DNA of 64,000 bases from Arenimonas oryziterrae DSM 21050 = YC6267. Its GTDB lineage: Bacteria; Pseudomonadota; Gammaproteobacteria; Xanthomonadales; Xanthomonadaceae. Position 1 is the first letter of the stretch. Every line of letters begins with the position of its first letter. This document shows positions 39,802 to 62,295 of the stretch, piece by piece. The DNA is taken from positions 124,001-188,000 of the forward strand of contig NZ_ATVD01000002.1 of assembly GCF_000420545.1 (NCBI RefSeq), read 5' to 3'. A program made the position numbers and the translations under genes. The notes below the pieces were generated by a model. The model did not search any database. It worked only from the letters and a program-made list of their open reading frames with translations, and was not told the DNA's origin.

Positions 39802-40890
39802 GTGAGCGACTGGATCGATACGCCCGAGGCGCTGCGCGCCCGGCTTCAGGCCTGGGGCAACCCGGAAATCGTCGCCCTGGACACGGAGTTCATCCGCGAG
39901 CGCACCTACTATCCGCAGCTCGCCCTGGTGCAGCTGGCGATCCCCGGCGAGGTCCTGCTGGTCGATCCGCTGGCGCCCGGCGTCGCGGAGGCGTTGCGGC
40001 CGCTGCTGATCGATCCGTCGATCATCAAACTCATGCACAGCGCCAGCGAAGACCTGCAGGCCCTGTCGCGCGGCTGCGGTGTCCTGCCCTCGCCGCTGTT
40101 CGATACCCAGGTCGCCGCCGCGATGGGCGGTTTCGGTGCCGGGCTGGGCTACCAGAAACTCGTGGAACAGATGACGGGCGTGACGCTGGAAAAAGGCGAG
40201 ACGCGCTCGGATTGGCTGCGCCGCCCCTTGTCGGAATCGCAGCTCAAGTACGCCGCCGACGACGTGCTGTATCTGCACGCCGCGCACACGGTACTCGCGG
40301 CGAAACTCGCCGAACTTGGCCGCTCCGCCTGGCTGCAGGCCGATTGCGAACGCGCGATCCGCAACGCCGGCAGCGACGCCGACGACGTGCATCCGCACCT
40401 GGCCGTGCGCAGCGCGCAGATGCTCGATGCCGACGGTCAGGCGCGCCTGTGCCGCCTGCTGCGCTGGCGCGATGTCGAAGCGCGGCGTTCGGACAAACCC
40501 AAGAGCTGGATTCTCGACAACGAACTCGCGGTCGCGCTGAGCCGGCGCGTCCCCGACGATATCCATCGTTTCAATGAATTCCTCGACCGCAATCCGAAAG
40601 CGCCGCGCAAATCGCGGCGGGAATTGTTCGCCCTGCTCAGCGAACCGCTGACCGAGGCCGAACGCGCGATCCCGCTCAACCGCAGCGGCGAGAACCTCGA
40701 CAAGCAGCGCCTGAAGGCGATGCAGGAAGCAGTCGCCGCCGTGGCCCTGCCGCTGGAACTGCCCGAAGGCCTCTTGTGCGCGCGCAAGCATCTCGAAGCC
40801 CTGCTCGAAGGCCGCGGCTGGCCGCCGGCGCTCGAAGGCTGGCGCCGCGATCTGCTCGAACCGGTGCTCGCGCCCCTGATCCCGGCTTGA
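39802..40890 (+). CDS. rnd: Ribonuclease D
   Basis: A 362-residue 3'-5' exoribonuclease for tRNA and stable-RNA maturation. The DEDDy catalytic set is Asp27 and Glu29 in ALDTEF, Asp84 in HSASEDL, and Tyr150 with Asp154 in KYAADDV. Two HRDC domains follow. The GTG at 39802 is taken as the start because AAAGGA lies 6 bases before it. The stop codon lies inside a TTGACA that may be the -35 box of the thr operon. Confidence 0.93.
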   Translation: MSDWIDTPEALRARLQAWGNPEIVALDTEFIRERTYYPQLALVQLAIPGEVLLVDPLAPGVAEALRPLLIDPSIIKLMHSASEDLQALSRGCGVLPSPLFDTQVAAAMGGFGAGLGYQKLVEQMTGVTLEKGETRSDWLRRPLSESQLKYAADDVLYLHAAHTVLAAKLAELGRSAWLQADCERAIRNAGSDADDVHPHLAVRSAQMLDADGQARLCRLLRWRDVEARRSDKPKSWILDNELAVALSRRVPDDIHRFNEFLDRNPKAPRKSRRELFALLSEPLTEAERAIPLNRSGENLDKQRLKAMQEAVAAVALPLELPEGLLCARKHLEALLEGRGWPPALEGWRRDLLEPVLAPLIPA

Positions 40891-40915
40891 CAGGGGCCCG
40901 TGCCATCGGTTCCAC
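40887..40915 (+). promoter_or_regulatory. Candidate thr operon promoter
   Basis: A perfect -35 box, TTGACA, spans 40887-40892 and overlaps the rnd stop codon. The -10 region 16-18 bases on reads GTTCCACT, a poor match. If used, transcription would start at about the leader-peptide AUG at 40923. The same geometry is found at the leu-ilv operon. Confidence 0.45.
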
Positions 40916-40922
40916 TCGGGTC

Positions 40923-41000
40923 ATGACCTTCCGCACCACGACGACTATTACCACCTCCACTACCGGTACCCGGTCGGTGCGGTGGCTCGTTCGCGGATAA
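40923..41000 (+). CDS. thrL: thr operon leader peptide
   Basis: A 25-codon reading frame beginning MTFRTTTTITTSTTGT, with nine threonine codons and one isoleucine codon between residues 5 and 16. It ends in TAA 96 bases before thrA. Its composition is that of ThrL, whose translation senses charged tRNA-Thr and tRNA-Ile. There is no Shine-Dalgarno sequence before its ATG, and the predicted promoter lies only 36 bases upstream, so it may be translated from a leaderless transcript. Followed by mutually exclusive RNA structures. Confidence 0.88.
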   Translation: MTFRTTTTITTSTTGTRSVRWLVRG

Positions 41001-41093
41001 GTTTCTCTTCGCAAACCCTGGCCCCGCACCTCGTCGAGGATGCGGACGCGCCCAGCCCCCTTCCCGACGAATGCAGGGCCTCCCTTTGGAGGC
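40976..41093 (+). promoter_or_regulatory. thr leader RNA switch ending in a thrA RBS-sequestering hairpin
   Basis: Three competing pairings can be drawn. 40976-40986 pairs with 41021-41030 (GGTGCGG/CCGCACC, then GGC/GCC past one bulge). 41020-41028 pairs with 41072-41080 (GGCCCCGCA/TGCAGGGCC, one mismatch). GCCTCC (41078-41083) pairs with GGAGGC (41088-41093). The last stem hides the GGAGG ribosome site of thrA and has no U-run, so it should block translation rather than transcription. A ribosome stalled at late Thr codons would cover the first segment, favour the middle pairing and free the ribosome site. Confidence 0.65.
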
Positions 41094-41096
41094 TTC

Positions 41097-43598
41097 ATGA
41101 ATTCGCCCGCTGTCGTTCCTGCCGATCACGCCGCTGCGGCCCCCGTCACCGTCGCCCACAAGTTCGGCGGATCTTCGCTCGCCGATGCCGGCTGTTTCCG
41201 GCGCGTCGCCGCGAACCTGCGTGAGCGCAGCGAACGTGAACAAGTGATCGTCGTCTCGGCGATGCAGGGCGTGACCAATGCCCTGCTCGCGCTCGCCGAC
41301 GCCGCCGTCGCACAGACGAACGATTGGCAGAACGACTGGGCGGCGCTGCGCGACCGCCATCTCGCCGCCGCAGCCGCACTCACCGGTGAGGCCAGCGAAA
41401 CACAGGATTGGCTGCAGTTGCGCTTCGAAGAACTGCACGGCCTGCTCAATGCGTTGTCGGTGCTCGGAGCGCCTAGCCGCGAGGCGCTGGAACTGATCCA
41501 GGGCCTGGGCGAAGTCTATTCGGCGCGTCTGCTGGCCGATCACTTCCGTCGCGAAGGCGAGGCCTGCGCCTGCCTGGACGCGCGCGAGGTCCTGCTGGTC
41601 GCACACGGCGAACTCGGCGTCTCCGTGGACTGGCCGGCGAGCAGTGCACGCCTGGCCGATTGGCGCAGCGCGCATCCGGAACCGCGGATCGTCGTCACCG
41701 GTTTCGTCGCACGCAATGCCCAAGGCCGCGCGACCACCCTGGGCCGCAATGGCAGCGATTATTCCGGCGCGATTTTCGCGGCGCTGTTCGACGCGGCCGA
41801 ACTGCATATCTGGACCGATGTCGACGGCGTGCTCTCGGCCGACCCGCGCGTGGTTCCCGAAGCCGTGCCGCTGGCCACGCTGTCCTATCACGAGGCCTGC
41901 GAGCTCGCGTACTTCGGCGCCAAAGTCATCCATCCGCAGACGATGACGCCGGCGCTCGCGCGCGGCCTGCCCATCTATATCCGCAACACCTTCCGTCCGC
42001 ACCTGCCCGGCACGCGCATCGCCGCCGAGAGCACGCCCGACGGTCCGGTGAAGGGACTGACGCTATGCCCGGACCTGGCCCTGCTCAATGTCGAAGGTGC
42101 GGGCATGATCGGCGTGCCGGGCACGGCGCAGCGCGTGTTCGCGGCGCTGCGCGTGGCCGGTGTATCGGTGGTGATGATCTCGCAGGGCTCGTCGGAGCAT
42201 TCGATCTGCTGCGTCGTCCGGGCCGCGGAGTCGGCGCGTGCGCAAACGGCGGTCGCCGATGAATTCGCGGCCGAACTGGCGCGCGGGCAGCTCCAGAGCA
42301 TCGGCGTGGTACCCGACATCAGCGTGCTCGCCGCCGTCGGCGATGGCATGGCCGGCACGCCCGGCGTCGCCGCGCGTCTGTTCGATTCGCTGGCCCGGGC
42401 GCGCGTCAACGTGCGCGCAATCGCGCAGGGCGCCTCGGAGCGGAACATCTCCGTCGCCCTGGCCAGCAAGGATGCCGAACGCGCGCTGCGCGCGGCGCAT
42501 GCCGGTTTCTGGCTGTCGCCGCAGACGATCTCGATCGGCGTGATCGGTCCGGGCAAGGTTGGTGCCGCCCTGCTCGAACAGCTGCAGGAAGCGATCCCGC
42601 GCCTGCGCCGCGAGGCGAATCTGGATCTGCGCCTGCGCGCGCTCGCGAACAGCCGCACGATGTGGCTCGATCCGCTCGGACACGCACCCGAACACTGGCA
42701 GGCGCATCTCGATGGCGCCACCGAGGCCTGCGACCTCGCCCGCTTCGCCGCGCACGTGCGCACCGAGCATCTGCCGCACGCGATCATCCTCGACTGCAGC
42801 GCCAGCGATCACGTCGCCGCGCACTACGCCGACTGGCTGGCACAGGGCATCCATGTGATCACGCCCAACAAACATGCCGGCGCGGGCCCCTGGCCGCGTT
42901 TCCAGGCGATCCGTGCCGCGAGCGCGGCGACCGGCGCGCGCTTCCGCTACGAAGCCACCGTCGGTGCCGGCCTGCCCGTCATCCAGACTCTGCGCGACCT
43001 GCTCGATACCGGCGACAGCCTGCATTCGGTCGAAGGCATCTTCTCCGGCACGCTCGCCTGGCTGTTCAACCGTTACGATGGCCGCATGCCCTTCTCCGAA
43101 CTCGTCCATGAAGCCCACGCCCTGGGCTATACCGAACCCGATCCGCGCGACGACCTGTCGGGCACGGATGTCGCGCGCAAGCTCGTCATCCTCGCGCGCG
43201 AAGCCGGCTTGCCGGTGTCGCTCGAGCAGGTGCGCGTCGAGAGTCTGGTGCCGGCATCGCTGGCCGGCGTGTCGCGCGAGGATTTCATGGCCCGACTCGG
43301 CGAAGGCGATGCAGCGATGCAGGCCCGGCACGCGCAGGCCACCGCGGCAGGAAAGGTCCTGCGCTACGTCGCGCGCTTGGACCAGTCGGGCGACGCGCAG
43401 GTCGGTCTGGTCGAATTGCCGGGTGACCACGCCTTCGCGCATCTGCGCTTGACCGACAACGTCGTGCAGTTCAGCACGCGTCGCTACGCGAGCAATCCGC
43501 TGGTCGTACAAGGCCCCGGCGCCGGACCGGAGGTTACCGCCGCCGGCGTGTTTGCCGATCTGCTGCGCGTCGCTTCCTCGCTCGGAGCGCGGGTATGA
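41097..43598 (+). CDS. thrA: Bifunctional aspartokinase / homoserine dehydrogenase I
   Basis: An 833-residue fusion. The aspartokinase domain starts at KFGGSS (Lys22). Two ACT regulatory segments are centred near residues 330-460. The homoserine dehydrogenase domain begins with [18 protein letters not shown] at about 480. It carries out the first and third steps from aspartate to homoserine and is usually inhibited by threonine. The ATG at 41097 is preceded by GGAGG inside a hairpin. An upstream in-frame start would read through the leader structures. It overlaps thrB by 4 bases. Confidence 0.95.
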
Positions 43599-52000: not shown

Positions 52001-52028
52001 TTGACAAGCGTTTCGACGCGCGCTTAGT
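52001..52028 (+). promoter_or_regulatory. leu-ilv operon promoter
   Basis: A perfect -35 box, TTGACA (52001-52006), is followed 16 bases later by CTTAGT (52023-52028), a modest -10. Transcription would begin within a few bases of the leader AUG at 52037. Confidence 0.6.
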
Positions 52029-52036
52029 CTCGACCC

Positions 52037-52174
52037 ATGCCTCGCCACCACACCACTGCCAACGCAATCACCGCCCGGGTCCTCCCGGTCGCTGATGCGT
52101 TCGTGGTCAATGGCCTGGCCCTCGCAGCGCTCGTACTCGTACTCGTCCTTATTATCCCCGGAGGTGCGGGCTGA
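52037..52174 (+). CDS. leu-ilv operon leader peptide
   Basis: A 45-codon frame ending with LALAALVLVLVLIIPGGAG and TGA. The run of Leu, Val and Ile codons (residues 32-40, 52130-52156) matches the three products of the operon and is the ribosome-stalling control region of an attenuator. No ribosome site precedes its ATG, which lies 36 bases after the start of the TTGACA. Its last codons can pair with the terminator downstream. Not similar in its first half to known leader peptides, as expected for such peptides. Confidence 0.85.
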   Translation: MPRHHTTANAITARVLPVADAFVVNGLALAALVLVLVLIIPGGAG

Positions 52175-52246
52175 GGGCGTTCGTCTAACGAGTAAAACCA
52201 GACGAGACCGAAAACCCCGCACCCGGAAACGGATGCGGGGTTTTTT
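52158..52246 (+). terminator. leu-ilv attenuator (antiterminator and intrinsic terminator)
   Basis: Terminator: CCCCGCA (52215-52221) pairs with TGCGGGG (52234-52240), with an inner CCG/CGG and GAAA loop, followed by six T. Antiterminator: GTGCGGG (52164-52170) pairs with CCCGCAC (52216-52222) and CCGG (52158-52161) with CCGG (52223-52226), 11 bp with a 2-nt bulge. The two are mutually exclusive. A ribosome finishing the leader covers 52158-52170 and allows termination; stalling at Leu/Val/Ile codons leaves it free. Confidence 0.85.
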
Positions 52247-52271: not shown

Positions 52272-53855
52272 ATGCAAACAGTCAACCAACCCACGCAAAA
52301 CAACGACGAAGCGCCGCGCGAACGCGTACGCATCTTCGACACCACCCTGCGCGACGGCGAACAGGCTCCCGGCTATTCGATGACGCGGGCGCAGAAGCGG
52401 CGCATCGCCCAGGCGCTCGCCGAACTCGGCGTCGACATCATCGAAGCAGGCTTCGCCCAGGCCTCCGACGATGATTTCGCGGCCGTGCAGGCGATCGCCG
52501 GCGACCTGCGCGGACCGACCGTCTGCGCCCTCGCCCGCTGCCAGTTCGGCGACATCGAAGCCGCCGCCCGCGCGCTGGAACCGGCGCATCACGCGCGCAT
52601 CCACGTGTTCATCGCGACCAGCCCGCTGCATCGCGAGCACAAGCTGGGCATGAGCAAGGCCCAGGTCATCGACAACGCGGTCGCCGGCGTGCGCCGGGCG
52701 CGCGAGTTGTGCGGTGACGTCGAGTTCTCCGCCGAAGACGCGCTGCGTACCGAACCGGAATTCCTCGCCGAGGTCCTGAGCGCGGTCATCGCCGCTGGCG
52801 CTTCGACCCTCAATGTGCCCGACACGGTCGGCTATACGACGCCGGCGGAGATGGCCGAGCGCATCGCCTACCTGCGCCGGCACGTGCAGGGCATCGAACG
52901 CGCCGTGCTCAGCGTGCACTGCCATAACGACCTCGGCATGGCCGTCGCGAACAGCCTGGCGGCCGTCGGCGCCGGTGCGCGCCAGGTCGAGTGCACGCTG
53001 ACCGGCATCGGCGAACGCGCCGGCAATGCCGCGCTCGAAGAAGTGGTCATGGCCCTGAAAACGCGCAGCGAGCTGTATCGCGTCGACACCGGCATCGCCA
53101 CGCAGCGCCTGTATCCGACCGCGCGTCTGCTGACCAATCTGCTGGGCATGCATCTGCCGCGCAACAAGGCCGTGGTCGGCGAGAACGCGTTCGCACACGA
53201 AGCGGGCATCCATCAGCATGGCATGCTCAAACACCGCGGAACCTACGAAATCATGCGTCCGGAAGACGTCGGGTTCGCGCGCTCGCAGCTGGTGCTGGGC
53301 AAACACAGCGGCCGACATGCCCTGCGCGAACGCCTGGCCACGCTCGGCCACGAGCCGGACGAGGCGCAGCTCGACGAGCTGTTTACGCGCTTCAAGACGC
53401 TCGCCGACAAGAAGCGCGAGGTGTTCGACAACGATCTGGAAGCGTTGGCGCTCGGCCGCGATCCCGATGCGCTCGGTCCCTGGCGCATCGTGCAGTTGCA
53501 CACCAGCAGCCACGTTGGCGGCATGGCCTCGGCGACGGTCAAGCTGACACACGAGGACGGCCGCCAGGCCAGCGAAGCCTCGATCGGCGATGGGCCGGTG
53601 CATGCGGTGCTGCGCACGATCGAGCGCGCGACCGGCCACGCGCTGGAGATCGGCGATTTCCAGATCCGTTCGCTGAGCGTGGGCGGCGATGCCCAAGGCC
53701 AGGCAACGTTGTCGGTCGAGCACGAAGGCCGCGAGGTCCGCGGCAAGGGCGTATCCACCGACATCGTCGAGGCGGCGGCGCTCGCTGCCCTCGAGGTGGT
53801 CAATCGCATCGAACGCCTGAGCGCGCCCACGCGCCGCGCCGCCAACCAATCCTGA
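52272..53855 (+). CDS. leuA: 2-isopropylmalate synthase
   Basis: A 527-residue enzyme condensing acetyl-CoA with 2-ketoisovalerate, the first leucine step. The TIM barrel starts with FDTTLRDGEQAPG. The metal ligands are in VHCHNDLGMAVAN, and GIGERAGNAALEEV follows. The C-terminal dimer domain that binds leucine (from about residue 395) is complete, so feedback inhibition is expected. The ATG at 52272 follows the attenuator by 26 bases with no strong ribosome site. Confidence 0.95.
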   Translation: MQTVNQPTQNNDEAPRERVRIFDTTLRDGEQAPGYSMTRAQKRRIAQALAELGVDIIEAGFAQASDDDFAAVQAIAGDLRGPTVCALARCQFGDIEAAARALEPAHHARIHVFIATSPLHREHKLGMSKAQVIDNAVAGVRRARELCGDVEFSAEDALRTEPEFLAEVLSAVIAAGASTLNVPDTVGYTTPAEMAERIAYLRRHVQGIERAVLSVHCHNDLGMAVANSLAAVGAGARQVECTLTGIGERAGNAALEEVVMALKTRSELYRVDTGIATQRLYPTARLLTNLLGMHLPRNKAVVGENAFAHEAGIHQHGMLKHRGTYEIMRPEDVGFARSQLVLGKHSGRHALRERLATLGHEPDEAQLDELFTRFKTLADKKREVFDNDLEALALGRDPDALGPWRIVQLHTSSHVGGMASATVKLTHEDGRQASEASIGDGPVHAVLRTIERATGHALEIGDFQIRSLSVGGDAQGQATLSVEHEGREVRGKGVSTDIVEAAALAALEVVNRIERLSAPTRRAANQS

Positions 53856-53867
53856 CGGAGTCGTCTC

Positions 53868-54815
53868 ATGAAAGCCCCCACCCTGCTCTGGCACAACGGC
53901 CGCATCAAGTCCTGGCACGAGGCCAGCGTGCATGTCGGCGCGCATGCGCTGCACTACGGCTCGTCCGTGTTCGAAGGCGAACGCGTCTACGCGACGCCCT
54001 CGGGCCCGCAGTATTTCCGCCTGGCCGAACACACCGAGCGCCTGTTCAATTCCGCGCGCATCTACGACCTGGTCATCCCCTACACGCCCGATGAAATCAA
54101 TGCCGCCTGCCACGAGGTGATCCGCGCCACCGGCCTCAAGAGCGCGTATGTCCGTCCGATCGCGTACCGCTCGGGCTTCACCTTCAGTCTCGCGCCCACG
54201 GCGGACGTCGCCGTGGACGTCGCGATCATCGCGATCGAATGGGGATCAATGCACGGCGCCGCCGCGCTGGAGAACGGCGTCGATGTCTGCGTGAGTTCGT
54301 GGACGCGCGCCGCGCCGAACACCTATCCGACCGGCGCCAAGGCCGGCGGCAACTACCTGTCGAGTCAGCTGATCGCCCAGGAAGCCGTGCGCGGCGGTTT
54401 CGTCGAAGGCATCGCGCTGGCGCCGGGCGGTCTGCTCAGCGAAGGCGCCGGCGAGAATCTTTTCGTCGTGCACAAGAACCGCATCTACACGCCGCCGGCG
54501 GGCGCCAGCATTCTGTGTGGCATCACCCGCGACAGCGTGTTCACGCTTGCACGCGAGCTCGGCTACGAGGTGCAGGAGCAGGCCTTGCCGCGCGAAATGC
54601 TGTATTTCGCCGACGAGGTGTTCATGACCGGCACCGCGGCGGAAATCACGCCGGTGCGCTCGGTCGACCGCAAGCCGGTCGGCAAGGGCGAACCCGGCCC
54701 GGTGACGAAAGCGCTGCAGAAGGCGTTCTTCGGTCTGTTCGACGGCAGCACCGTCGATCGCTGGGGCTGGCTCACACCGGTGACCGAGGCGACCCAGTCC
54801 CAGGAGGCCGCGTGA
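53868..54815 (+). CDS. ilvE: Branched-chain amino acid aminotransferase
   Basis: A 315-residue class IV PLP aminotransferase doing the last step for leucine, isoleucine and valine. The cofactor lysine is Lys158 in [29 protein letters not shown] and [13 protein letters not shown] are family motifs. GGAG precedes the ATG. Its stop overlaps the leuC start by one base (TGATG). Confidence 0.93.
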
Positions 54816-56257
54816 TGAATCCGTCCGCCCGCACTCTGCTCGACAAGCTCTGGGACGCGCATCAGGTCGTCGCCGAAACGGCCGCGGCGCCCGGTGTGCT
54901 CTACATCGATCTGCATCTGATCCACGAAGTCACGACGCCGCAGGCCTTCACCGAACTGCGTGCGCGCGGCCTGTCGGTGCGCCGTCCCGAACGCATTCTC
55001 GCCACGCTCGACCATTCCACGCCGACGACGCCGCGCGATGCGCAGGGTCAGCATGTCTACGCCAGCGAGGAAGCGGCCGCCCAGGTCGCGCAGTTGGAAC
55101 TGAACTGCCTGCAGTTCGGCATCGACCTGCAAGGCTGGAGCAGCGAATCGCGCGGCATCGTCCACGTGATCGGCCCGGAGCTGGGCGCCACCCAGCCGGG
55201 CATGACCATCGTCTGCGGCGACAGCCACACCTCGACCCACGGTGCCTTCGGCGCGCTCGCGTTCGGCATCGGCACGACCGAAGTCGGCCATGTGTTGGCA
55301 ACGCAATGCCTGTTGCAACGCAAGCCGAAGAACTTCGCGATCCATGTCGAAGGTCGTCTGGCGCCGGGCGTGACGGCAAAAGACCTGGCCCTGCATCTGA
55401 TTGGCCGCATCGGCGTCAACGGCGGCACGGGCCATGTCCTCGAATACCGCGGCAGCGCCATCGAGGCCCTGACCATGGAAGAGCGCATGACCCTGTGCAA
55501 CATGTCGATCGAGGCCGGTGCACGTGCCGGGCTGATTGCACCGGACGAAACCACGTTCGCGTATCTGCAAGGTCGCGAACGCGCTCCGAAAGGCGCCGCC
55601 TGGGATCAGGCGCTGGCTTATTGGCGGACGCTGCCCAGCGATGCCGGCGCGCGCTACGACCGCGAACTGCGCTTCGATGCCGCCGACGTGCGCCCGACGA
55701 TCAGCTACGGCACGCATCCGGGCATGGTCGTCGCCCTGCACGCCCCCGTGCCTGCCGCGAAAGACCTGCCCGAGCGTCGCGCGCTCGATTACATGCGCGT
55801 TGATGCCGGCAAGCCGATGACCGGCATGCCGGTCGACCTCGTGTTCCTCGGCAGCTGCACCAATTCGCGCATCAGCGATCTGCGTGCGGCGGCGAGCCTG
55901 CTGCAGGGCCGGCGGATCGCCGCGAACGTGCGCATGCTGGTCGTGCCCGGTTCGGTCACGGTGCAACGCGAGGCCGAGAAAGAAGGCCTGGACCAGGTGT
56001 TCCGCGACGCCGGCGCCGAATGGCGCGAGCCCGGCTGTTCGATGTGCATCGCGATGAACGGCGATCTCGCCCAGCCGGGACAACTGGTCGTCAGCACGAG
56101 CAATCGCAATTTCGAAGGCCGACAAGGTCCGGGCGCTCGCACCGTTCTTGCCAGCCCCCTGGTCGCCGCTGCTTCCGCCCTGGCGGGCTGCATCGCCGAT
56201 CCGCGCGACGTCGGAAAGTCCGGCGATACCTCATCGACCCGGGAGCAAGCGGCATGA
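54815..56257 (+). CDS. leuC: 3-isopropylmalate dehydratase large subunit
   Basis: A 480-residue aconitase-family subunit. The [4Fe-4S] cluster ligands are Cys348 (GSCTNSR), Cys408 and Cys411 (GCSMC). [18 protein letters not shown] is diagnostic. With LeuD it isomerises isopropylmalate. AGGAGG lies 7 bases before the ATG within the end of ilvE. A GTG one codon earlier is an alternative start. It overlaps leuD by 4 bases. Confidence 0.96.
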
Positions 56258-56838
56258 AACCCCTGACCCATCTGCGTTCGCGTACCGCGGTGCTCACGCA
56301 CGAAAACATCGACACCGACCGCATCATCCCGGCGCGGTTTCTCACCACGACCGAGCGCAACGGCCTGGGTCGTTACGCGTTCAACGACTGGCGCTACCGC
56401 GCCGACGGCAGCGCCGACCCCGAGTTCGCGCTGAATCGCCCGTCTTCGCAGGGCTGCGAGATCCTGGTCGCCGGCCGCAATTTCGGCTGCGGTTCCTCGC
56501 GCGAGCACGCGCCCTGGGCCTTGCTCGACTATGGCCTGCGCGCCGTGCTGTCTTCGGAGATCGCCGACATCTTTCGCGGCAACGCGCTCAAGAACGGCCT
56601 GCTCGCAGTCACGCTCAGCGAGGCCGAGCACCGCTATCTGCTCGCGCATCCGGGCATCGAACTGGCGATCGACGTCGCCGCCGGCACGATCGAACTGCCC
56701 GATGGCGGCCGCTTCCGTTTCGAACTCGACGCGTTCGCGCGCCACTGCCTGACCCAAGGAGTCGACCAACTCGGTTTCCTGCAACAGCACGGCGCGCAGA
56801 TCGATGCCTTCGAAGCCCGGCGCGAGGTGCACGCATGA
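56254..56838 (+). CDS. leuD: 3-isopropylmalate dehydratase small subunit
   Basis: A 194-residue swivel-domain subunit that completes the active site with Leu[14 protein letters not shown] and [17 protein letters not shown] are the family motifs. It overlaps both neighbours by 4 bases, which keeps the two subunits of the dehydratase in balance. Confidence 0.96.
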
Positions 56839-57908
56839 AGGCGAACCTTGTCCTGCTGCCCGGCGACGGCATCGGCCCGGAAACCACGGCTGCTGCGGTC
56901 GCGGTGCTGCGCGCCATCGCGACGCGTCATGCGCACGATTTCGTATTCACTGAACACGCGATCGGTGGCTGCGCGATCGATGCGACGGGCGCGGCCTTGC
57001 CGGCGGCCACGCGCGCCGCCTGCCTGCAAGCCGACGCCGTGCTGCTGGGGGCGGTCGGCGGACCGAAGTGGTCCGATCCGGCGACGCCGGCGCGTCCGGA
57101 ACAAGGGCTGCTGCAATTGAGGGCTGCACTCGGCGTGTTCGCGAACCTTCGCCCGGTGCGCGTGCATCCGCGCGCGGCCGCGCTGTCGCCGATCAAGCCC
57201 GAACGGCTCGCCGGCGTCGACCTGCTGTTCGTGCGTGAACTCACTGGCGGCAGCTATTTTGGTGCGCGCACCCGCGACGCCGCCAGCGCCAGCGACGAAT
57301 GCCGCTACACCGTGGTCGAAATTGAGCGCGTGCTGCGCCGCGCCTTCGACCTCGCACGCGGCCGGCGCGGCCGTGTCACCTCGATCGACAAGGCCAATGT
57401 GCTGGAAACCTCGCGTCTGTGGCGAGAGACCGCAGTGCGGGTCGCCGCTGACTATCCCGATGTCGTGCTGGAACACCAGCTCGTCGATTCGATGGCGATG
57501 TTGCTGCTCACGCGACCGGCGGACTACGACGTGCTGGTCACCGAAAACCTGTTCGGCGACATCCTCACCGACGAGGCCGCCGTGCTCGCCGGCTCGCTCG
57601 GCCTGCTGCCTTCGGCCTCGCTCGGCGACGGCCGTCGCGGCCTGTACGAGCCCATCCACGGCTCGGCACCGGACATCGCCGGCCGCGGCGTCGCCAATCC
57701 GATCGGCAGCATCCTCAGCGCGGCCCTGTTGCTGCGGCATTCGTTGGGTCTGGAATCAGAAGCGCGCGAAATCGAAGTGGCGGTCGACGCCGTGCTCGAT
57801 GCCAACGAGCTACCCCGCGACCTCGGTGGCCAAGCCGGCACACAGGACATCACCGCCGCCGTGCTGGCCGCCCTCGCCCACTCCCACGCCGCACAAGCGG
57901 CGGCCTGA
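56835..57908 (+). CDS. leuB: 3-isopropylmalate dehydrogenase
   Basis: A 357-residue NAD-dependent decarboxylating dehydrogenase. [10 protein letters not shown] opens the fold, [12 protein letters not shown] and [14 protein letters not shown] carry substrate contacts, and [11 protein letters not shown] plus HGSAPDIAG bind metal and NAD. It finishes the leucine branch before the aminotransferase. It overlaps leuD by 4 bases and ilvD follows 12 bases later. Confidence 0.96.
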
Positions 57909-57920
57909 CCCGGACTCGAC

Positions 57921-59573
57921 ATGCGCAGCAATGCCATCAAACACGGACCCGATCGCGCCCCCGCCCGCGCGATGCTGCGCGCCACCGGACTCGACGATGC
58001 CGATATCGCCAAGCCCCTGGTCGCGATCGTGCACACCTGGTCGAACGTCTCGCCCTGCAATCTCAACCTGCGCGATCTGGCGCAGGCCGCCTGCGACGGC
58101 GTGCGTGCGGCCGGCGGTACGCCGATCGAATTCAACACGATCGCCGTGACCGATGGCATCGCCATGGGCACCTCGGGCATGCGTGCCTCGCTGGTGTCGC
58201 GCGAACTCATCGCCGATTCGATCGAACTCGCCGTCGACGGTCATTGCCTGGATGCCGTGGTGGTGTTGTGCGGCTGTGACAAGACCATTCCGGCCGCGGC
58301 GATGGCGCTCGCGCGCATGAACATCCCCGGCGTGGCGCTGTATGGCGGCAGCATCGCGCATGGCCAACTCGCCGGCCAACCGATCACGATCCAGGAAGTG
58401 TTCGAGGCCGTCGGTGCACACGGCGCCGGCAAGATGAGCTGCGCGCAGTTGGCCGAGGTGGAAAAGAAAGCCTGCCCTGGCGCGGGCGCCTGCGGCGGCC
58501 AGTTCACCGCGAATACGATGGCGATGGTGCTGACCGCGCTGGGCCTGTCGCCGCTCGGACTCAACGATATCCCTGCGACCGATCCGGCGAAGCGCGATGC
58601 CGCGTTTCGCTGCGGCGAGCTGGCGATGCAATGCCTCGCGGACGGTTTGCTGCCGCGTGCCACGCTGACACCCGAGGCCTTCCGCAATGCCGCCCGACTG
58701 GTCGCCGCGACGGCAGGTTCGACCAATGCCGTCCTGCATTTGCTGGCAATCGCGCACGAAGCCGGCGTCGCGCTGACGCTGGAGGATTTCGAGCAGGCCT
58801 CGCGCAACACGCCGGTGATCGCCGATCTCAAACCCGGCGGCCGCTACACCGCGGTCGAGCTCACGCTCGCCGGCGGCACGGCCTTGGTCGCCCGCGAATT
58901 GCGCGCCGCCGGCATGCTCGACGATGCGCCGACGGTGACCGGCCACTCGCTGTTCGCCGAACTCGATGCCGCGGCACCCGCATTCGAAGGCCAGCAGGTC
59001 GTGCGCACGATCGCCGATCCGCTCAAGCCGCGTGGCGGCTATTCGATCCTGTACGGCAATCTCGCGCCGGAAGGCTGCGTGCTCAAGCTCGCCGGCCAGG
59101 GCAAGGTGCATTTTGACGGTGTCGCGCGCGTGTTCGAAAGCGAGGAGGAAGCCTTCGCCGCCGTGCAGTCCGACCGCATCCGCGCCGGCGATGTGCTGGT
59201 GATCCGCAACGAAGGACCGGCCGGTGGTCCGGGCATGCGCGAAATGCTCGCCGTGACTGCCGCCCTCGTCGGGCGCGGACTCGGCAACGAGGTGGCCCTG
59301 ATCACTGACGGCCGCTTCAGCGGTGCCACGCACGGCTTCATGGTCGGACATGTCGCACCGGAGGCCGCGCGCGGTGGTCCGATCGCCCTGCTGCGCGAAG
59401 GTGACCGCGTGGTCATCGACGCCGACACGCGCCGTCTCGACACCGATGCCGATCTCGAGACGCGACGCGCGCAATGGCAGGCGATCGCACCGACGGTCAT
59501 CCGCGGCGCCCTGGCCAAGTACGCCCGCCTGGTCGGCTCCGCCGCGAAAGGCGCCGTGACTGACGGCGTCTAG
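57921..59573 (+). CDS. ilvD: Dihydroxy-acid dehydratase
   Basis: A 550-residue iron-sulfur dehydratase for valine and isoleucine. Cys46 (SPCN), Cys119 (CGCDKT) and Cys191 (GAGACGGQF) match the three [2Fe-2S] ligands. [16 protein letters not shown] and [11 protein letters not shown] are family motifs. It is shorter than E. coli IlvD (616) and nearer the compact type. A 54-base gap to ilvC contains a fresh ribosome site but no clear promoter. Confidence 0.94.
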
Positions 59574-59627
59574 GCAACCCATTCCAACCCCCCTTCCTCA
59601 ACCCACCCTGCTTACCGGAGAAACACC

Positions 59628-60614
59628 ATGACCACCCCCGCCACTACCGACGCCCTGAAGTCATCGCGTCTTGCCATCCTCGGTTACGGCAGCCAGGGTC
59701 GTGCCCATGCTTTGAACCTGCATGAATCCGGACTCGACGTGATCGTCGGCGTGCGCAAGGGCGGCCCCAGCTGGGAGAAAGCGCAGGCCGACGGTCTGCG
59801 CGTGGCCGAACCGGCCGAGGCGGTGAAACAGGCCGATCTCGTCGCCGTGCTCACCCCCGACATGGTGCAGCCGGCGCTGTATCACGAAGCGATTGCGCCC
59901 TACCTCAAGCCGAACGCGGCGCTGTTGTTCGCGCACGGCTTCAATGTGCATTTCGATCAGATCCAGCCGCGCGCGGACATCGACGTGATCCTCGTCGCGC
60001 CCAAGGGACCGGGTGCCCTGGTGCGTCGCGAATACGAAAAGGGCCACGGCGTACCCTGCTTGTACGCGATCCACCAGGACGCCAGCGGCGAGGCGCGTGC
60101 CAAGGTGCTCGCCTATGCCGCGGGCATCGGCGGCGCGCGCGCGATGCTCATCGAAACCGAATTCGCCGAGGAAACCGAAACCGATCTGTTCGGCGAGCAG
60201 GCCGTGCTCTGCGGCGGCGCCACCGAACTCGTGCTGCAGGGTTTCGAAACGCTGGTCGAAGCCGGCTACAAACCCGAGGTCGCGTACTACGAGTGCCTGC
60301 ACGAGCTCAAGCTCATCGTCGACCTGCTGCATGAGGGCGGCCTGGCGAAGATGCACCAGTTCGTTTCCGAGACCGCGCAATACGGCGACCTCACCCGCGG
60401 CCCGCGCGTGGTCAACGACGAAACCCGCAGTCGCATGCGCGAAGTACTCGCCGAGATCCGCGACGGCCGTTTCGCCAAGGAGTGGGTCGACGAATACAAG
60501 GCCGGCAATGGCAACTACCGCGCCATGAAAGAGCGCGATCTGGCGCATCCCATCGAACAGGTCGGCGCGACGCTGCGTGCGCGCATGCCCTGGTTGGCAC
60601 CCGCAGGAGGCTGA
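59628..60614 (+). CDS. ilvC: Ketol-acid reductoisomerase (class I)
   Basis: A 328-residue class I enzyme (E. coli has the longer class II). The NADPH motif is [14 protein letters not shown], with VRKG after strand two. [15 protein letters not shown] and the metal ligands in [16 protein letters not shown] complete the site. GGAG lies before the ATG. It ends one base before ilvG. Confidence 0.96.
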
Positions 60615-60615
60615 C

Positions 60616-62295
60616 ATGGACGGTTCCAAGGAACAACGCACGATCACCCGCACCGGCGCGCAATGGCTGCTGCAGGCGCTGGAGGCGGAAGGTTGCGAGG
60701 TCATGTTCGGCTATCCGGGCGGCGCGATCATGCCCGTGTACGACGCCCTCGTGGACAGTCCGATCCGGCACATCCTCGTGCGTCACGAACAGGGCGCGGC
60801 ACTGGCCGCCGATGGCTACGCCCGCGCCTCGGGCAAGGTCGGCGTGTGTCTGGCGACGTCCGGACCGGGCGCGACCAATCTGCTCACCGGCATCGCGAAC
60901 GCGTATCTGGATTCGGTGCCGATGGTCGCGATCACCGGCCAGGTGCAGACGATGATGATGGGTACGGATGCCTTCCAGGAAGTCGACGTGTTCGGCATGA
61001 GCCTGCCGGTGGTCAAGCACAGCTACGTCGTGCGCCGTGCCGAAGATGTGTATGCGACCGTGCGCGAGGCTTTCGCGATCGCGCGCTCGGGTCGGCCGGG
61101 ACCGGTGCTGATCGACTTGCCGAAGGATGTCGCCGTCGCTTCGGCGCTGGCACGCGCGCCGCGCTACCAGACCCGCCGCGGCAACGACGACGAACCGGAG
61201 GCCTTGATGCAGGCGCGCGCCCTGGTCGCGCAGGCCGAACGGCCGCTGCTGTATGTCGGCGGCGGCGTGAGCATGGCCAACGCCGAATGGGCCCTGCGCT
61301 CGTTGATGCGTTCGACCGGCTTGCCGGCGGTCTACACGCTCAAGGGCCTCGGCGCGGTGGATCCCGATGCGCCGTTCAATCTGGGCATGCTCGGCATGCA
61401 CGGCAATCCGGCCGCGAATCACGCCGTGCAGGAATGCGATCTGCTGATCGTCGCCGGTGCCCGCTTCGACGACCGCGCGACGGGCAAGCTGGCGACGTTC
61501 GCGCCCAACGCGCGCGTGCTGCACCTGGACATCGATCCGGCCGAAATCGGCAAACTGCGCACGGCCGATGTCGGTCTCGGCGGCAAGCTCGGTGAAATCC
61601 TGCCGGCGCTGGCGCAGCCTTTGCACATCGGAGCCTGGCAGCAGCATTGCCGGCAAATGAAAACCCGCCACGCGGAACGCTACGACGCACCCGGCGACGG
61701 CGTGTTCGCACCGGCCCTGCTCAAGCAGTTGTCCGAAGCCGGCGGCAATCGTCTGATCGTCGCCAGCGATGTCGGTCAGCACCAGATGTGGGTCGCGCAA
61801 CACTGGCGGGTCAACCGCACTGCCGCGCATCTGTCGAGCGGCGGCCTGGGCACGATGGGCTTTGGTCTGCCGGCCGCGATCGGTGCGCAACTGGCGAAAC
61901 CCGAGGCCTGCGTGGTCTGCGTCAGCGGCGACGGCTCGATCATGATGAACATCCAGGAGCTCGCCACGCTCAAGCGTTACGGCATCCCGGTCAAGATCGT
62001 GCTGCTCGACAATGCCTGCCTGGGCATGGTGCGGCAGTGGCAGGAATTGTTCTTCGGCGAGCGCTACAGCGAAGTCGATCTGTCCGACAATCCAGACTTC
62101 GCGCAACTCGCACGGGCATTCGGTATCGCCGCCTTCACCGTCGAGCGCCGCGATCAGGTGGCGGATGCGATCGAACGCCTGCTCAGCGAAGACGGCCCCG
62201 TGCTGTGCCACGTCAAGATCGATCCGCGCGCGAACGTCTGGCCGCTGGTGCCGCCGGGCAAATCGAACGCAGAAATGATGGGCTGCGCCGCATGA
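60616..62295 (+). CDS. ilvG: Acetolactate synthase large subunit
   Basis: A 559-residue thiamine-diphosphate enzyme. It opens with [14 protein letters not shown] and the catalytic glutamate in [19 protein letters not shown]-region motifs follow, and the ThDP motif is [16 protein letters not shown] to LLDN. It makes acetolactate or acetohydroxybutyrate. AGGAGG lies before the ATG at 60616. It overlaps the small-subunit gene by 4 bases. The IlvG/IlvM pairing suggests isozyme II, though the regulatory properties cannot be read from sequence. Confidence 0.95.

Follow-up and report, generated by a model that had tools for sequence, protein, structure and literature searches.

The window analysed in this study is a 64,000-nt stretch of the genome of Arenimonas oryziterrae DSM 21050 = YC6267 (assembly GCF_000420545.1, contig NZ_ATVD01000002.1, positions 124,001–188,000, forward strand). 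Two of its operons, thr and leu-ilv, are each preceded by a short open reading frame (ORF) for a leader peptide and by the promoter elements given below.

40887–40892, + strand: -35 hexamer of thr, TTGACA, read from the sequence; TTGAC is invariant in the 29 thr leaders counted
40911–40916, + strand: predicted -10 hexamer of thr, TCCACT, at an 18-bp spacer; its first and sixth T are conserved in relatives
40923–41000, + strand: thr leader peptide MTFRTTTTITTSTTGTRSVRWLVRG, predicted to be leaderless with +1 on or next to A40923; no Shine-Dalgarno (SD) sequence
41097–43598, + strand: thrA, aspartokinase-homoserine dehydrogenase (PF00696, PF00742)
52001–52006, + strand: -35 hexamer of leu-ilv, TTGACA, read from the sequence
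52025–52030, + strand: predicted -10 hexamer of leu-ilv, TAGTCT, at an 18-bp spacer, from comparison with leuA-type leaders
52037–52174, + strand: leu-ilv leader peptide MPRHHTTANAITARVLPVADAFVVNGLALAALVLVLVLIIPGGAG, predicted to be leaderless from its sequence and relatives
52272–53855, + strand: leuA, first gene of the leu-ilv operon (PF00682, PF08502)

The Pfam matches of the neighbouring genes included a 3'-5' exonuclease (RNase D-like) upstream of the thr leader, a GHMP kinase at the thrB position, LeuA and a class IV aminotransferase. The stop codon TGA of the exonuclease gene (40888–40890) is within the thr -35 hexamer on the same strand. This gene thus ends within the thr promoter, and a leadered thr transcript could also be made via read-through from it.

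The preliminary description of this DNA had reported a perfect TTGACA 36 nt before both leader AUGs and no SD sequence at either of them. Both observations were confirmed. The hexamers start at 40887 and 52001 and the AUGs at 40923 and 52037, respectively, and the duplex energies with the 16S rRNA end were -2.4 kcal/mol for thr and +1.0 kcal/mol for leu-ilv. With the 18-bp spacer, both -10 hexamers are followed by a gap of 6 nt and then by the A of the AUG. A simple sigma-70 scan listed no promoter at either leader, because it required the second hexamer to match at four or more of six positions and the -10 hexamers of the window match at three.

Conservation of this geometry was assessed upstream of thrA, leuA and ilvD in three families of the order, which were the window's own family (f1), f12 and some genomes of f3. 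ThrA matches (E ≤ 1e-150) were found in 87 of the 151 genomes of the order, and the upstream regions of 70 of them were analyzed. LeuA matches (E ≤ 1e-140) were found in 92 of the 151 genomes; 50 of their upstream regions were analyzed, and the 42 outside the sample included 20 from the window's family. IlvD matches (E ≤ 1e-200) came from 49 of the 119 genomes of the family. Of these, 47 loci were analyzed; one other match was left out, and the window's own ilvD was omitted because of its position inside the operon. The anchor was ilvD instead of ilvC because most family members have ilvC at a later position in the operon; among 30 ilvC-anchored loci, which are outside the main counts, TTGACA was 36 and 37 nt from the leader in two (L081 and L086). 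In addition, a set of 80 loci with genus titles was searched, which included Xanthomonas, Stenotrophomonas, Pseudoxanthomonas, Arenimonas, Rudaea and Tahibacter, which are genera of Xanthomonadaceae and Rhodanobacteraceae.

Leader ORFs were called only by runs of Thr or runs of Leu/Ile/Val codons. The best -35 match was then sought 30–60 nt upstream of each in-frame start, and the best-matching start was retained, a choice that biases each ORF toward a positive result. The geometry was scored as present when at least five of six positions matched TTGACA 35–39 nt upstream of an in-frame ATG. No leader candidate was found at 39 of the 70 thr loci, 20 of the 50 leuA loci and 2 of the 47 ilvD loci.

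The geometry was present in 102 of 106 leader ORFs (29 of 31 thr, 28 of 30 leuA-type and 45 of 45 ilvD-type). Conservation of the 36-base spacing, which had been named beforehand as a test, thus held within 35–39 nt, and the distances among the 102 leaders were 35 nt in 4, 36 nt in 36, 37 nt in 53, 38 nt in 7 and 39 nt in 2. Among the 29 thr leaders counted, TTGAC was invariant and the sixth base was A in 97%, at least five matches out of six being the selection rule. The four ORFs scored as misses were either unfitting or spurious (L161 and L165 of thr, L202 and L056 of leuA); in L056, TTGCTG was seen by eye 36 nt before another in-frame start. In the titled set, whose genomes are partly shared with the main set, leaders were found at 47 of the 80 loci, and 46 of their 48 ORFs had the geometry, with loci of all six genera named above among them. 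The misses were L284, in which TTGCGG was seen by eye 37 nt upstream, and the second ORF in L303.

The preliminary description had also called the -10 boxes poor. This is true of the window, where they reach only three of six consensus positions, but the pattern T....T is kept: with a spacer of 18, T was at the first and sixth hexamer positions in 83 of the 102 leaders, vs 1–21 of 102 for spacers of 14–17 and 19–21. Moreover, the second position was A in 82% of the 28 leuA-type leaders, and the ilvD-type leaders had TGn ahead of the -10 hexamer (84% for T and for G). The end of the -10 was 5–9 nt, mostly 6–7 nt, from the A of the AUG in the 102 leaders. Given that a sigma-70 promoter at such a distance usually starts transcription at or beside the A of the leader AUG, T....T at the 18-bp spacer predicts a transcript that starts on or next to the leader AUG.

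The lack of an SD sequence was also general. When positions -20 to -4 were paired with the 16S rRNA end, the mean duplex energy was -1.79 kcal/mol for the leaders, -2.30 kcal/mol for shuffles of the same bases and -4.40 kcal/mol for ilvD genes, whose 44 control starts were assigned by position and were GTG in 35 cases, so that some may be misplaced. Energies of -4 kcal/mol or below were found for 11 of 102 leaders, 17.8% of shuffles and 34 of 44 ilvD genes, and a core SD tetramer for 3 of 102 leaders vs 33 of 44 ilvD genes. A second in-frame ATG was found within the first 14 codons of 17 of the 102 leaders. Over their first 18 nt, the leaders were only a little more open than shuffles (0.63 vs 0.54). 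Two further features were rejected as specific evidence: the C at position -1 (98 of 102 leaders), which was also found at 34 of 44 ilvD starts, and the C+A-rich first codons, as the C+A content of ilvD genes was about equal (0.71).

Many ilv/leu leader peptides start with M(T/S)QR(N/S/T), far from their control codons (L034–L051, L114–L142 and L172–L188); residues 2–5 were TQRN in 21, TQRS in 12 and SQRN in 6 of the 102 leaders. For 20 loci, the 940 nt ahead of the HisG domain were searched for a His leader of the same kind, and none was found in 19 of them, hisG not necessarily being the first operon gene in every genome. The one match (L258) had a GTG start and a -35 matching at four of six positions and was judged to be spurious. 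In the whole 3.09-Mb genome, TTGACA-N29..32-ATG had 8 matches vs 14 for a reversed control pattern, that is, no enrichment. A chance origin of the pattern at the leaders was nevertheless rejected, since relatives have retained the pattern at the same loci. Four loci of this genome (G000; L143, L144, L145 and L149) have other genes with TTGACA 35–38 nt before ATG, which are possible leaderless genes. Judged by eye, L149 looks like a regulator of the TetR type, and L144 like a small HTH regulator whose boxes enclose a palindrome.

Outside this group the arrangement mostly differs. In E. coli thrL, TTGACT is 79 nt before the ATG, which leaves room for a 5' untranslated region (UTR), whereas the distance is 36 nt in Arenimonas thr. 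In the order of genome G359, 30 of 52 thrA loci were sampled and 26 had a leader. TTGAC[AT] was 57–85 nt upstream in 14 of these, a match at 35–39 nt was found in 5, and 7 were ambiguous. As most of the clear cases were at 57–85 nt, a distance of 35–39 nt is not imposed by the detector. Four of the five short-distance loci (L343, L345, L346 and L349) represent all four genomes sampled from family f120, and L347 was ambiguous. The f120 thr leaders, judged by the -35 alone, have TTGACA, TTGACT or a similar hexamer 35–36 nt upstream of the ATG. The leaderless geometry, as far as sequence comparison indicates, may have arisen more than once.

From these comparisons, both operons are probably regulated by leader-peptide attenuation from an mRNA whose 5' end is on, or within about 2 bases of, the leader AUG. 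With TTGACA, an 18-bp spacer and T....T, a promoter of the housekeeping type would set +1 at the A of the AUG; a ribosome would therefore load on the 5' end without an SD sequence while the RNA emerges from the polymerase, and the loaded ribosome would then read the Thr or Leu/Val/Ile control codons. The earlier suggestion of leaderless leaders is thus supported in that the spacing is conserved, the -10 is kept and SD sequences are absent, while the position of +1 itself is a prediction from spacing only.

Other starting points would also account for some of these observations. The transcripts might have a very short 5' UTR of about 1–5 nt or start inside the AUG, and the leaders would then be non-SD but not strictly leaderless. 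The distance varies from 35 to 39 nt with the -10 fixed at a spacer of 18, so that the gap between -10 and AUG varies from 5 to 9 nt, as this reading would have it. However, the modal gap of 6–7 nt agrees with +1 at the A. C, which precedes the AUG in 98 of the 102 leaders, is moreover a poor starting base for transcription. A short UTR has a precedent in the leader of ilvBNC of Corynebacterium glutamicum, for which +1 is reported one nucleotide from the start codon (PMC11857589), but we consider it unlikely here. It is far less probable that TTGACA is no working promoter at all and that the leaders are part of longer transcripts started upstream and translated by ordinary non-SD initiation. 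The overlap of the thr -35 with the exonuclease stop codon and the negative sigma-70 scan at both leaders would fit such a reading, but many genera and three types of operon share both hexamers and the distance, which is unexpected for a non-functional box. The promoter that would start transcription at the leader AUG is thus retained as the preferred reading.

Downstream of the promoters, the two operons have the following elements.

40976–40982, + strand: leader segment GGTGCGG, complementary to the 5' arm of the thr attenuator hairpin; 97.7% of cells paired in 38 sequences
41024–41045, + strand: thr attenuator hairpin CCGCACC..GGATGCGG without a U-tract; TTTT absent
41076–41095, + strand: hairpin GGGCCTCC/GGAGGCTT over the thrA SD sequence; a local pairing, absent from the RNAalifold consensus
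52214–52246, + strand: leu-ilv intrinsic terminator CCCCGCACCCGGAAACGGATGCGGGG, a strong hairpin followed by a T run

In leu-ilv, control codons in the leader and a terminator with a U-tract are both present, and in the window sequence the leader end GGTGCGGGC is by eye complementary to the terminator 5' arm. Stalling of the leader ribosome would thus, in the classical scheme, choose between an antiterminator (GGTGCGGGC with the terminator 5' arm) and the terminator with its T run. A simple terminator scan did not list this terminator on the + strand, probably because of mismatches in the stem. The window LeuA shares 78% identity with the LeuA of G012 of family f12 but 58% with the one of G119 of the window's own genus. 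The window leader precedes leuA, as in f12, and in 45 of 47 other members of the family examined the leader is before ilvD. Because of this identity pattern and leader position, a relative of f12 may have been the donor of the leu-ilv operon (52272–62295).

The thr region differs in its terminator. A TTTT run was found in 0 of 75 thr regions, which, as some titled loci are from genomes of the main set, do not represent 75 genomes, vs 26 of 28 leuA-type and 36 of 45 ilvD-type regions; hence there is no U-tract terminator before thrA. The simple terminator scan also listed no site before thrA, but the same scan missed the leu-ilv terminator. In 68 of 72 loci with an identifiable SD sequence, the thrA SD was part of a local hairpin with 5 bp or more. 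Hairpins of at least 6 bp were found at 56 of 62 distinct loci vs 16% of shuffles and 10 of 33 ilvD genes. In an alignment of 38 of the 62 distinct regions, 91% of the cells of the SD-hairpin helix were paired and 4 of its 7 pairs had changes on both sides. The values for the two thr hairpins together were reached by 0 to 3 of 500 shuffles. When the partners were slid by one column, 53% of cells were paired vs 90% for the two-hairpin structure, but 6 pairs and 8 cells had changes on both sides vs 5 and 7 for the structure itself. The attenuator 5' arm can also pair with the stretch before the thrA SD (89.8% paired), and its pairing with GGTGCGG showed no covariation in the 38 sequences.

A hairpin without a U-tract and a thrA SD within a hairpin of its own suggest that the output of the thr attenuator may be translation of thrA. 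In Xanthomonadaceae and Rhodanobacteraceae, translational attenuation might thus have replaced the terminator type at thr, with a leaderless Thr-rich peptide controlling an SD-hiding hairpin, while leu-ilv in the same cell keeps its terminator, and leaderless leaders would have a separate origin in one or more families of another order of gammaproteobacteria. We put this scenario forward tentatively, as possible but on the whole not probable. The idea that thr is an ordinary transcription attenuator like that of E. coli, its terminator either needing no U-tract or acting together with Rho, is a stronger candidate, although it too falls somewhat short of an even chance. The hairpin arms and the leader segment pairing with the 5' arm are kept and resemble those of E. 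coli thrL. For the 38 sequences, RNAalifold predicted the attenuator hairpin and a long-range pairing but not the SD hairpin, its covariation term being almost nil. Equilibrium folding with the leader ribosome at various positions gave no switch in SD access, the mean probability of an unpaired SD being 0.06–0.17 at every position. The SD was thus never opened much, which leaves the on-state unexplained. Two observations speak against an E. coli-like terminator: the TTTT run, kept in most leu and ilv regions, is missing from all thr regions, and the thrA SD is covered by a hairpin. Control at the level of thrA translation is thus a serious possibility but not a result.

As predicted for the leaders found here, several amino-acid leader peptides of other bacteria are at or next to the start of their transcripts. 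Leaderless cysteine-rich attenuator ORFs have reportedly been found in mycobacteria. In Sinorhizobium meliloti, an RNA, rnTrpL, is reported to begin at the ATG of the attenuator ORF trpL (PMC7298713). As predicted for the thr and leu-ilv leaders, the attenuator ORF is thus at the transcript start, but S. meliloti is an alphaproteobacterium, the operon is trp and the 14-aa peptide has functions in trans (PMC7298713). Accumulation of the peptide peTrpL under tetracycline was reported to be equal with leaderless trpL::egfp and SD-bearing constructs (PMC7298713), and this comparison weighs mildly against a special dependence of leaderless leaders on 70S initiation and growth state, which the preliminary description had proposed as a possible consequence. 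The ilvBNC leader of C. glutamicum is likewise a branched-chain leader with +1 next to its start codon and with attenuation; different from the leaders of this study, it is from Actinobacteria, encodes a 15-aa peptide and has another leader sequence (PMC11857589). In Streptomyces lividans, leuL, ilvL, trpL and thrL are reported to be leaderless amino-acid leader peptides. The species also belongs to Actinobacteria, its thrL precedes thrS, and a typical terminator is described as absent from the leader before leuA (PMC8079986). Leaderless attenuator peptides are thus not new as a kind, being known in Actinobacteria and Sinorhizobium.

Among gammaproteobacterial leaders, E. coli thrL (Rfam RF00506) is also a Thr/Ile leader before thrA with a similar hairpin and a complementary leader end, but a T run follows its hairpin, which is absent in Arenimonas thr. 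In the window, neither Rfam leader model reached its gathering threshold (14.7 vs 55 bits for Thr_leader and 19.1 vs 50 bits for Leu_leader). A literature search, which left subscription journals mostly uncovered, found no report on leaderless leader peptides of Xanthomonas or Stenotrophomonas, for which start-site maps may exist.

Judged by the sequence comparisons, the finding is real and has a broad phylogenetic basis. With it, the range of leaderless attenuator peptides would come to include a large group of gammaproteobacteria in which one promoter-AUG geometry serves three operon types. Such leaders would easily be overlooked by gene finders that rely on SD sequences, as well as by the Rfam leader models, which scored below threshold here. 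Finally, the leadered thr leaders of the E. coli type and the leaderless ones predicted here would provide a clean comparison for the effect of leaderless initiation on amino-acid sensing.
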